A model generated the notes under the pieces. The model saw only the letters and a list, made by a program, of their open reading frames with translations. It was not told the DNA's origin and made no database searches. This document shows, piece after piece, positions 5,034-7,998 of a stretch of 12,135 nucleotides of DNA; the stretch's first letter is position 1; the number at the start of each line of letters is the position of its first letter. The stretch comes from Deltaproteobacteria bacterium RBG_13_61_14 (lineage in GTDB: Bacteria > RBG-13-61-14), in NCBI GenBank assembly GCA_001797815.1, contig MGQK01000035.1:29335-41469 (forward strand), given 5' to 3'. A program made the translations under genes and the position numbers.

Positions 5034-6104
5034 ATGACCGCGGAAGTGTATCTGGCCCGGCTTCCGGACGGCGCCCCGCCGGCGGCGCAGGCCGAGGCGG
5101 TTCGCAGGGTGCTGACGGCTGCCGGGTTTATCAGCCGGCTGGCCAAGAAGGACCTGGTGGCGATCAAGGTCCACGTGGGGGAGGTAAACAACGTCACCCA
5201 TCTCCGGCCCGAGCTGGCCGCGGCCGCGGTGAAGATGATCCGGACGGCCGAGGCCTGGGCCTTTCTGACCGACACCTCCACCCTTTACAGGAGCCGGCGC
5301 GACCACGCCATCAAGCATGTCCTCCACGCCCATGCCCACGGCTTCACCATCGAGGCCACCGGCGCGCCCTTCCTGCCGGTGGACGGACTGGTGGGCCGGC
5401 ACGAGGTGGAGGTGAAGGTGAACGGCGAGTTGCACGAGAGAGTGAAAGTGGCCGGCGAAATTCTGCTGGCCGATGCCCTGCTGGTGCTCAGCCACCCCAC
5501 CGGCCACATGGGTACCGGGCTGGCCGCGGCCCTCAAGAACGTGGGCATGGGGCTTTCCTCCCGGGCCGGCAAGATGCGGCAGCACAGCTCGATCCAGCCC
5601 GAGGTGATGGCGGAGAAATGCCAGAACTGTGGCAAGTGCCGCAAATGGTGCCCGGTGGACGCGATCGCGGAGCGGGGTGATTCTTCCTGGATTGACCCGG
5701 AGCGCTGCATCGGGTGCGGCGAATGCCTGGCCGTGTGCCGGCAGGGGGCGGTGAAGTTTGACTACCGGATCCAGTCCGAGCCGCTGCAGAAGAGCATGAT
5801 CGAGCACGCGGCCGGCGTGCTCCGGCACTTCGGCTCGAAGGCGGCGTTTGTCAACGCGCTGGTGAACATGACCAGGGACTGCGATTGCTTAAACAAGGTG
5901 CAGGAGAAGATCATGCCCGACCTGGGGATGCTGGCTTCCAGCGACATCGTGGCCGTGGACCAGGCGACCCTGGACTTGACCGCCGAGGCCCAGGGCAAGA
6001 ACCTGGCCGCGCTCGCCTATTCCGTGCTCAATCCCGCCATCCAGATTGCCCACGCCGAGAAGCTGGGGCTTGGCAGCCGGCGGTATCATTTGGTGGAACT
6101 ATAG
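5034..6104 (+). CDS. DUF362 protein with two 4Fe-4S clusters
   Basis: This 356-residue protein belongs to the DUF362 family, often fused to a ferredoxin module; no reaction is established for most members. The N-terminal DUF362 portion includes IKVHVGEVNNVTHLRPE at about 44-60, a family hallmark, and HPTGHMGTGLAAALKNVGMG at 154-173. A 2[4Fe-4S] ferredoxin module follows: C196-x2-C199-x2-C202-x3-C206-P and C225-x2-C228-x2-C231-x3-C235. A further DCDC motif (C283, C285) after the ferredoxin is common in this family and could bind metal. No signal peptide or membrane segment is evident, so it is probably cytosolic. The start at ATG 5034 has AAAGGAGA 9 bases upstream. It follows the kinase by 55 bp and precedes the repeat-bounded S23 cassette by 6 bp. 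An electron-transfer or redox role is inferred from the clusters only. Confidence 0.88.
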   Translation: MTAEVYLARLPDGAPPAAQAEAVRRVLTAAGFISRLAKKDLVAIKVHVGEVNNVTHLRPELAAAAVKMIRTAEAWAFLTDTSTLYRSRRDHAIKHVLHAHAHGFTIEATGAPFLPVDGLVGRHEVEVKVNGELHERVKVAGEILLADALLVLSHPTGHMGTGLAAALKNVGMGLSSRAGKMRQHSSIQPEVMAEKCQNCGKCRKWCPVDAIAERGDSSWIDPERCIGCGECLAVCRQGAVKFDYRIQSEPLQKSMIEHAAGVLRHFGSKAAFVNALVNMTRDCDCLNKVQEKIMPDLGMLASSDIVAVDQATLDLTAEAQGKNLAALAYSVLNPAIQIAHAEKLGLGSRRYHLVEL

Positions 6105-6110
6105 CAAGAA

Positions 6111-6138
6111 GGCTTTCGGCGTTAGGCTTTAGGCATTA
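6111..6138 (+). repeat. Left heptamer array (GGCNTTA x4)
   Basis: Four consecutive 7-bp units: GGCTTTC, GGCGTTA, GGCTTTA, GGCATTA. The first is degenerate at its last position. They begin 6 bp after the DUF362 stop codon. The complement of units 2 and 3 plus 3 bases matches the right array perfectly over 17 bp. Confidence 0.8.
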
Positions 6139-6148
6139 GATCAAGAAG

Positions 6149-6154
6149 AGGAGG
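6149..6154 (+). promoter_or_regulatory. Ribosome binding site of the S23 gene
   Basis: AGGAGG lies 1 base before ATG 6156 and 4 bases before the in-frame ATG 6159. The spacing makes the second ATG the more likely start. This is the strongest Shine-Dalgarno in the window and lies inside the cassette, so the gene carries its own translation signal. Confidence 0.6.
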
Positions 6155-6158
6155 GATG

Positions 6159-6521
6159 ATGTCCCGGGATTATCGCAAATTGAGAGCTTTTTCTTTGGCT
6201 AAGGCGTTAGTTATTCAGATTTATCGGGTTACCCGACATTTTCCTCGCGAAGAACTTTTCGGCTTGACCAGACAGATGCGGAGAGCGGCAATCAGTGTTC
6301 CCGCGAATATTGCTGAAGGAGCAGGAAGGAACACGCTTCGTGATTACGTTAATTTTCTGAATATTGCTATGGGCTCTTTATCCGAGCTCAGCTATTATCT
6401 TGAACTATCCCTGGAACTGGGGTATCTGAATGAGAAAGATCATCTTCAGATTGGGGCACAGTGTGATGAGGCTTCCCGGACCCTGCAAGGTCTGATCCAG
6501 GCGCTGAGGAAAAAACTCTGA
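6159..6521 (+). CDS. Four-helix-bundle protein, S23/23S rRNA IVP family
   Basis: This small protein of 120 residues (121 if ATG 6156 is used) belongs to the S23 family first met in intervening sequences of 23S rRNA genes and now known at many other sites. Its function is unsettled; structures show a pentamer-forming four-helix bundle. Family blocks seen: LRAFSLAKALVIQIYRVT near the N-terminus, then FPREELFGLTRQMRRAAISV, the hallmark PANIAEGAGRNT, and NIAMGSLSELSYYLELSLELGYL near the middle to end. Start at 6159 is chosen because AGGAGG is only 1 base from ATG 6156. Codon use and base composition are AT-richer than all neighbours, suggesting recent acquisition. It reads in the same direction as the flanking DUF362 and thiolase genes and lies wholly between the two inverted arrays. 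No rRNA sequence surrounds it. Confidence 0.9.
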   Translation: MSRDYRKLRAFSLAKALVIQIYRVTRHFPREELFGLTRQMRRAAISVPANIAEGAGRNTLRDYVNFLNIAMGSLSELSYYLELSLELGYLNEKDHLQIGAQCDEASRTLQGLIQALRKKL

Positions 6522-6539
6522 ATTTGCAGTTTTGGATAC

Positions 6540-6578
6540 TTAAGCCTAAAGCCTAACGCCTAAGGCCTAAGGCCTTAT
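6540..6578 (+). repeat. Right heptamer array (TAANGCC units)
   Basis: Consecutive 7-bp units read TTAAGCC, TAAAGCC, TAACGCC, TAAGGCC, TAAGGCC, then a degenerate end. They are the reverse complement of the left array's units. The 17-bp core GCCTAAAGCCTAACGCC at 6544-6560 pairs perfectly with 6118-6134. The array ends about 25 bp before the thiolase start, so it forms most of that gene's upstream region. Confidence 0.8.
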
Positions 6579-6603: not shown

Positions 6604-7998
6604 ATGCGAAGTGTTTACGTGATCGGGGCGCATACCATCAAGTTCGGGAAATACCTGGATCAGGGCGTCAAGGACCTGTGCGGCTGGACCGTGGCCGGGG
6701 TGCTGAAAGACGCCGGGCTCGAGCCGTCGGCCATCGAGTCGGCCTGGTTTTCCAACTCGGGCTGGGGAATCCGCAACTTCCAGCATTGCATAAGGGGCCA
6801 GGTGGCGCTGCGGCCCTTCGGGATTGACGCCATCCCCATCACCAACGTGGAGAACGCCTGCGCCGGCGGGTCCACCGCCTTCCACAGCGCCTGGAAGGAC
6901 GTGGCCTCCGGGCTGTTCGATATCTCGCTGGCGGTGGGCGTGGAGATGCTCTACGACCGGAACAAATACGCCGTGTTCGCCGGGTTCCTGGGCGGATTGG
7001 ACGTAGGCACGCTCGCGGAGCAGGTTGAGCGGTTGAAAGAAATCCCGCCCGAGCTGAAAGAGATTCCCCCGGCACAGCTCGAGGCCGTCCGCCAGACCAG
7101 GAAGGCCCGGAAGCCCAAGACCCTGCGCGACCGGGCTCAGGACTATTGGGACCGGTTCGCGGTGTTCGTGATCCTGGGCGAGACCATCGGTTACGACACC
7201 ATCCGGAAAATGATGGGCGCCGGCAAAGGCGGCGGCGACCACTCCGCGTTCATGGACGTCTATGCTTATGCCGCCCGCCGGCATATGCAGAAATACGGCT
7301 CCACCCAGCGCCAGCTCGCGGTCATCGCCTCCAAGAACCATGGGCACTCGACCCTGAACCCCAACGCCCAATACACTTTTGAAGTCTCGGTGGAAGAGGC
7401 GCTCTCGGACCGCCTGGTCAGCTATCCCCTGACCCGCGCCATGTGCGCGCCCATCGGCGACGGCGCCGCCTCCGCCATCCTCGCCTCGGAAGAAGTAGTC
7501 AAGCGGTTGGGGGTCTCTTCGCGAGCGGTGAAGGTCCGCGCCTCGATCCTGGCCTCGGGTCGGACCCGGGGAATGGACGATCCCGACATCGCCGAGCGGG
7601 CGTCCGCGCAGGCTTATGAGAAGGCCGGAGTCGGACCGGCTGAGATCAACCTGGCCGAGGTCCACGATGCCACCGCCTTCGGCGAGCTGCACCAGACCGA
7701 AGCGCTCGGCTTCTTCCCCAAAGGCGAGGGCGGGGTTCAGGCGGAGCAAGGCGTGACCAGGCTGGGCGGGAGCCTCCCGGTCAACACCTCGGGCGGGCTC
7801 ATCTCCCGCGGCCATCCCATCGGCGCCTCGGGCCTGGCCCAGATCCACGAGCTGGTGACCCAACTTCGCGGCGAGGCGGGCAAGCGCCAGGTGGAGAGCG
7901 CCCGGCTGGCCTTGGCCGAGAACGGCGGCGGCGCGCTCGGCAACGAGGAAGCCGCCATGTGCGTGCACATTTTGGAGTCACCGGCAGGAAGGCTTTAG
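6604..7998 (+). CDS. Thiolase family protein, SCP2/SCPx-type
   Basis: Thiolases make or cleave 3-ketoacyl-CoA using an acyl-cysteine intermediate. This 464-residue protein has the nucleophile C86 in NVENACAGGSTAF, a histidine in KNHGHSTLNPNAQ near 244-256, and the catalytic RGHPIGASG with H404. The final loop is ENGGGALGNEEAA, lacking the second cysteine of classical degradative thiolases, which fits the SCP2-type branch (cd00829-like). It is some 70 residues longer than the usual 390-400. The extra part is a charged stretch near 130-180 containing a tandem LKEIPPE/LKEIPPA repeat (144-157). ATG 6604 has GGAG 8 bases upstream. SCP2-type thiolases are often next to a DUF35 OB-fold partner, which is not seen here; a crotonase lies convergently downstream. 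The substrate is unknown. A lipid or sterol-like acyl-CoA role is inference only. Confidence 0.9.
   Translation: MRSVYVIGAHTIKFGKYLDQGVKDLCGWTVAGVLKDAGLEPSAIESAWFSNSGWGIRNFQHCIRGQVALRPFGIDAIPITNVENACAGGSTAFHSAWKDVASGLFDISLAVGVEMLYDRNKYAVFAGFLGGLDVGTLAEQVERLKEIPPELKEIPPAQLEAVRQTRKARKPKTLRDRAQDYWDRFAVFVILGETIGYDTIRKMMGAGKGGGDHSAFMDVYAYAARRHMQKYGSTQRQLAVIASKNHGHSTLNPNAQYTFEVSVEEALSDRLVSYPLTRAMCAPIGDGAASAILASEEVVKRLGVSSRAVKVRASILASGRTRGMDDPDIAERASAQAYEKAGVGPAEINLAEVHDATAFGELHQTEALGFFPKGEGGVQAEQGVTRLGGSLPVNTSGGLISRGHPIGASGLAQIHELVTQLRGEAGKRQVESARLALAENGGGALGNEEAAMCVHILESPAGRL

Follow-up and report, generated by a model that had tools for sequence, protein, structure and literature searches.

Why does a gene of the S23 family, which is otherwise familiar from the intervening sequences (IVS) of 23S rRNA, lie between two protein genes of Deltaproteobacteria bacterium RBG_13_61_14, and why is it framed on either side by inverted arrays of a 7-bp unit? 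The stretch of DNA analyzed here, termed the window, comprises 12,135 nucleotides. All positions refer to it, and the cassette and its neighbors are composed as follows.

5034–6104, plus strand: host gene for a DUF362/4Fe-4S protein (profile match), flanking and outside the element
6105–6110, plus strand: junction CAAGAA, directly after the DUF362 stop codon; a similar GAAGA(G) often precedes the first unit in gene-less copies
6111–6139, plus strand: left heptamer array GGCTTTC GGCGTTA GGCTTTA GGCATTA G, three strict units and one degenerate unit (6111–6138)
6148–6154, plus strand: Shine-Dalgarno sequence GAGGAGG, upstream of the ATG at 6156
6156–6521, plus strand: gene for an S23/23S rRNA-intervening sequence protein, a four-helix bundle of 121 amino acids (Pfam PF05635)
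6540–6577, plus strand: right heptamer array, inverted, TTAAGCC TAAAGCC TAACGCC TAAGGCC TAAGGCC TTA, four strict units and one degenerate unit (6540–6574)
6604–7998, plus strand: host gene for a thiolase-like protein (profile match), flanking and outside the element

The encoded protein is a member of the S23 family, as it matches positions 1–105 of the 106 positions of PF05635 with an E value of 2.4e-35 and 121 bits (curated cut-off 33.8). A weaker match (E 1e-4) was obtained for bAvd, PF22296. S23 is the sole gene of the cassette, and neither a transposase nor another known DNA-moving enzyme is encoded inside it. The original prediction of four heptamer units on the left and five on the right holds for the counts, with the qualification that one unit on each side is degenerate. 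The perfect 17-bp inverted core that it described, GGCGTTAGGCTTTAGGC, is present at 6118–6134 and 6544–6560, and the right array runs on into a AAGGCCTT palindrome. The window contains 13 copies of GGCNTTA as compared to 2.4 expected, and no more than 6 were obtained in any of 200 shuffles. With a length of 30 nt and 87% complementarity, the arms constitute stem-capable inverted repeats framing the S23 open reading frame, and the cassette thus indeed has the plan in common with the rRNA intervening sequences. It is also AT-richer than its surroundings, as had been stated (47% GC versus 66% for the whole window), the S23 reading frame ranking among the six lowest of 589 windows in GC content, and the gene has its own strong Shine-Dalgarno sequence. 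The S23, DUF362 and thiolase genes all reside on one strand, and since no sigma-70-like promoter was detected in the window, the simple interpretation is that S23 is expressed by read-through.

The cassette is not inserted in a 23S rRNA gene; its neighbors are the genes for DUF362 and thiolase. Its position outside rRNA had been taken as a peculiarity. The position itself is correct, while the peculiarity is not: rRNA detectable with Rfam was present at none of the 100 S23 loci scanned, the window locus included, so that location outside rRNA is the rule.

The host genome contains eight S23 genes, all of which, judged by eye, have inverted 7-bp arms, each with its own unit (TGGTTCC, GTAGGTN, GGCNTTA, GTATGTN, CCCTTCN-like, GTGAAGG, ATTGCGG and ATTTTAG). 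Among these eight, GGCNTTA is found at the window cassette only. The arms are weak at two loci (L005, L006) and abut runs of N at two others. Note that these runs lie where arrays are expected, i.e., upstream of L004 and downstream of L007, and they are possibly assembly gaps caused by the repeats.

Inverted arrays with a unit that changes from gene to gene were also seen in relatives of the host, and the survey was extended to 111 S23 loci. These represent more than 20 phyla, two metagenome-assembled genomes of archaea among them; 80 named loci were drawn by one peptide pattern, and one branch of S23 is over-represented. A lag-7 self-match run with a score of at least 12 occurred in 45% of the 300-bp S23 flanks and in only 4% of windows 1 kb off. 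Lag 8 was mildly enriched (10% versus 2.5%), a few loci showed lag 9, and other basic periods were not enriched. When a score of 9 was applied, arrays were present on both sides at 71 loci, on one side at 32 and on neither at 8, numbers that depend on the thresholds and on some arms being hidden by contig ends or N runs. Where both sides had the same period, the arms were inverted rather than direct in 65 of 67 cassettes. Their similarity amounted to 0.75 within a cassette as opposed to 0.51 between cassettes, and little room is left between the arrays beside the S23 reading frame. Furthermore, the more closely two S23 proteins agree, the more alike are their heptamers (Mantel r 0.48, reached in 0 of 2000 permutations). 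The arms being inverted, specific to their cassette and in step with the protein, the arrays belong to the S23 gene and not to the target. The expectation that GGCNTTA/TAANGCC arrays would recur at other S23 genes was thus confirmed for the plan, period 7 and inverted, and failed for the sequence of the heptamer, which is cassette-specific. S23 genes elsewhere are not devoid of arrays, nor are arrays restricted to this locus and unconnected with S23, the two outcomes named beforehand as speaking against the proposal.

The order of units agreed between the two arms better than after shuffling in only 5 of 49 cassettes. The idea of arms as exact inverted copies was accordingly rejected, and it seems that the unit is recognized rather than one exact stem. 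The phylum labels are scattered over the S23 tree, and diverged S23 genes are under purifying selection (dN about 0.09–0.15, dS about 0.9–1.3, dN/dS roughly 0.1–0.15). A minority of loci, mostly from Bacteroidota and some from Planctomycetota, has units of 8 bp (9 bp in L072); loci with units other than 7 bp are L057, L060, L071–L073, L076, L080, L108, L114, L017 and L022. Contigs C2, C3, C7, C12 and C13 of genome G010 carry 18–19 partial S23 matches, many of them as divergent pairs about 200 bp apart, which is an uncommon layout and perhaps a different derivative.

Throughout the host genome there are copies of the arrays that share the unit but enclose no gene. They were assessed in a 280-kb sample and by genome-wide pattern counts. 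The sample contained 29 period-7 arrays, several of which face each other as inverted pairs at a distance of some tens of bases, and the GGCNTTA array pattern matched 317 times across the genome as compared to 73 times for the reversed pattern. Many of these matches belong to hairpins of about 105 bp, in which four to five units are followed by an AT-rich core that shows no obvious conservation and then by a mirror array. The GGCNTTA pattern was also counted in 13 other genomes and remained at or near the control level in 12 of them. Twenty-one of the 29 sampled arrays fit one of the eight S23 cassettes of the host itself, whereas foreign sets of eight cassettes matched 2.0 arrays on average and 8 at most, none of 200 such sets reaching the mean for the host's own. 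The host thus harbors many gene-less copies that share the ends of the gene-bearing copy, as is typical of MITE-like non-autonomous elements. Dispersed arrays are few in some other S23-bearing genomes. Genome G048, which lacks a PF05635 S23 gene, nevertheless has many heptamer arrays, including long GGCAATA/GGCAGTA arrays of about 20 units (e.g., contig C1, 1078760–1078895); it also possesses two Avd genes, both in the vicinity of matches to reverse transcriptase.

Insertion can be followed on cyanobacterial plasmids, some of which carry S23 genes. The cassette on plasmid C of Trichormus variabilis is missing from plasmids of Fremyella, Nostoc linckia and N. carneum that are 97–98% identical, and several further plasmid sites are empty in relatives at about 90–94% identity. 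Altogether, empty sites were found for five cyanobacterial insertions (plasmids about 90–98% identical) and in Picosynechococcus (89%). The inserted piece is the whole cassette with its arrays, 414–518 bp in length. Scars vary from a duplication of 5–8 bp (GTAAT, then AAA versus TAA) or of 3 bp to losses of 2, 11, 16 and 32 bp. The larger losses were seen where the compared plasmids are less similar, and changes after the insertion may contribute to them. With S23 as the only gene and with variable scars, the transposase gene and fixed target duplication of a classical DDE insertion sequence are both missing. One insertion is common to two plasmids (L131, L132), whose left arrays differ by two heptamers, and a Brasilonema plasmid (L143) has a gene-less array pair at the same site. 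Plasmid E of Nostoc C052 bears a remnant of an S23 cassette there (L142, 1260–1400), suggesting loss after insertion. A gene-less copy has also jumped into an S23 gene: on a Nostoc N6 plasmid (L144, 1081–1640), a nested insertion of 182 bp, built from arrays of the same heptamer and devoid of a gene, interrupts S23, whereas Nostoc C052 has an uninterrupted copy without this element.

The cassettes insert whole between closely spaced genes, gaps in CRISPR-cas operons included. In Picosynechococcus PCC 7003, a cassette lies between cas10 and cmr3 (L133, 1986–2342) at a place that is empty in PCC 7002, and in Anabaena sp. 90 one is found between cas6 and cas4 (L137, 1998–2366). Where the neighbors are co-directional, S23 is oriented like them in 51 cases and opposite in 4, a count made with a simple ORF caller that misjudges some GC-rich loci, among them the window, which is truly co-directional. 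No indication of carriage by phages was obtained when 50,697 phage records were searched by tblastn with one S23 query. For the window copy itself, the thiolase orthologs of two genomes that belong to the host's order are preceded by a different gene and by neither S23 nor DUF362, so there is no clean empty junction. With arrays of the same kind at S23 genes elsewhere and empty sites in relatives, the proposed minimal mobile unit without a transposase gene has gained substance, and the data are compatible with movement in trans.

In our view, the window probably contains the protein-coding copy of a minimal mobile element, with S23 as the cognate protein and gene-less copies that are moved in trans. 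Its ends would be the inverted arrays of the degenerate 7-bp unit, and its single gene that for the S23 four-helix-bundle protein. S23 would be made by read-through of host operon transcription; an S23 oligomer may then recognize its own heptamer, as DNA or as RNA, and could provide the specificity for copying or inserting its own cassette along with the gene-less copies. A role of S23 as specificity factor would explain both the match of the dispersed arrays to the host's own heptamers and the co-variation of heptamer and protein. Cutting and joining might be performed by S23 itself, by a Y1 (HUH) transposase acting in trans, or by host repair. Several points speak against this reading: S23 is not known to have a catalytic domain, the scars are unlike those of a classical transposase, 8 of the 111 loci lack arrays, G048 has many arrays and no PF05635 gene, other S23-bearing genomes have few dispersed arrays, the window copy has no direct empty site, and the unit order of the arms is mostly not conserved.

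In principle, S23 could also be a passenger or helper, while chromosomal Y1 (HUH, REP-associated type) transposases act in trans on the array hairpins in a REP-like manner. Of 93 S23-positive genomes, 77 (83%) have Y1_Tnp, as compared to 67 of 148 S23-negative ones (45%; OR 5.8, p 4e-9, uncorrected for phylogeny). This association holds within the strata with and without DDE_Tnp_1, which itself shows no association with S23 in the 241 genomes. In addition, at least 19 Y1 genes were counted in the host and 10 in G048, which bears arrays but no S23. On the other hand, the association, perfect in the first 60 genomes, is broken in the set of 241 by 16 S23-positive genomes without Y1, one of which (G095) has ten S23 genes, and arrays are not more frequent near the host Y1 genes than in the background. 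Y1 as an obligatory partner is thereby rejected. The match of each S23 to its own heptamer would moreover be left unexplained. We consider it rather doubtful that Y1 enzymes are the principal agents. A single host Y1 gene does lie between inverted arrays of a TTTAGTT-type heptamer (L165, 910–937 and 1911–1932); the other host Y1 genes do not. Retro-mobility, in which the Avd-related S23 and a reverse transcriptase acting in trans would copy an array-ended RNA, could draw on the weak similarity to Avd, the predominant sense orientation and the variable scars. It appears highly improbable, because RVT_1 is absent from the host with its eight S23 genes and from most S23-rich genomes, and because reverse transcriptases are not associated with S23 in 60 genomes (5 of 24 S23-positive versus 10 of 36 S23-negative). 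On these grounds, a reverse-transcriptase partner was rejected, and the host does not possess the enzyme that defines a diversity-generating retroelement.

If, instead, no dedicated element existed, the arrays would have arisen by slippage and spread through repair or template switching at hairpins, with S23 carried in between. Variable scars, the change in copy number by whole heptamers between L131 and L132, and a unit that contains no recombinase gene would suit such a process. It is difficult to reconcile with two-armed cassettes inserting as a whole at one place, with heptamers that track the S23 protein sequence, with dispersed arrays that fit the host's own S23 cassettes and with period 7 being singled out, and we regard it as improbable. 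A purely RNA-level element, whose arms pair in the transcript and are cut by RNase III such that S23 is freed from the operon mRNA, with a role in processing or stability, would agree with the predicted RNA fold of the window arms, a strong stem with a z score of -4.15. The IVS in the 23S rRNA of Coxiella (428 nt), consisting of an S23 reading frame with terminal inverted repeats, is cleaved by RNase III and has three tandem heptamers, GACAGAT, before the reading frame, the number of which varies between strains (PMC4990558). Dozens of gene-less copies and the empty sites would remain unaccounted for, however, and the unit order usually does not match between the arms. This explanation is very unlikely to suffice. 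An RNA-level role could exist alongside mobility.

The mobile element that we favor can be compared with several known systems. The 23S rRNA IVS of Coxiella, Leptospira and Brucella likewise have an S23 reading frame between terminal inverted repeats. They reside inside 23S rRNA and are excised by RNase III, whereas the cassettes described here lie between protein genes and have empty sites and gene-less relatives. REP/BIME sequences, which go with RAYT (Y1) proteins, are small dispersed hairpins to which the gene-less heptamer copies can be likened, and S23 for its part co-occurs statistically with Y1 genes. S23 itself, however, does not belong to the Y1 proteins, some S23-positive genomes have no Y1 gene, and the ends are repeated units rather than a single palindrome. 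As with MITEs and their parental insertion sequences, a single copy bears the gene, and its ends recur in many copies that have none; unlike a MITE parent, the S23 element has no transposase, arrays instead of fixed terminal repeats, and variable scars. Avd of the diversity-generating retroelements belongs to a related four-helix-bundle family, yet the S23 host, in contrast to Avd systems, is a genome without reverse transcriptase. Heptamer repeats have been described for Xanthomonas (GGGAATC) and Nostoc, many of those in X. campestris as inverted pairs (PMC4692102), and TAACTGA repeats for Beggiatoaceae and others (PMC4679880). Like the S23 arrays, they are intergenic and degenerate. Unlike the S23 cassettes, they were described as gene-less, with neither S23 nor a mobile element, and the functions proposed for them, G-quadruplex formation and regulation, differ from a reading as mobile DNA. 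Structures of S23 proteins have been solved for 2rld and for 2gsc, the latter being XCC0516 from X. campestris (PMC4990558), and we predict that XCC0516 is flanked by GGGAATC arms.

A literature search, from whose range most subscription journals and bioRxiv were excluded, yielded no publication that connects S23 to heptamer arrays or, beyond rRNA, to a mobile element. Tentatively, and with slightly less than even confidence, we propose that S23 proteins, which range from CPR bacteria to archaea, serve the mobility of unrecognized minimal elements with self-specific arrays of 7–9 bp units, that the 23S IVS are their rRNA-resident members, and that the heptamers of Xanthomonas, cyanobacteria, Beggiatoaceae and others are gene-less copies. 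S23 has long been an orphan whose crystal structure is available but which has no function and is misleadingly called a ‘ribosomal protein’; the heptamer repeats are another orphan, hitherto viewed apart from it. Their connection provides S23 with a testable role. The rRNA intervening sequences would then be one of the places where a general element has inserted. The findings point to a mobile element of about 420–520 bp that encodes a single small protein and no recognized recombinase, and this may be a rare case in which the ends of an element evolve as populations of repeats while staying matched to their own protein.
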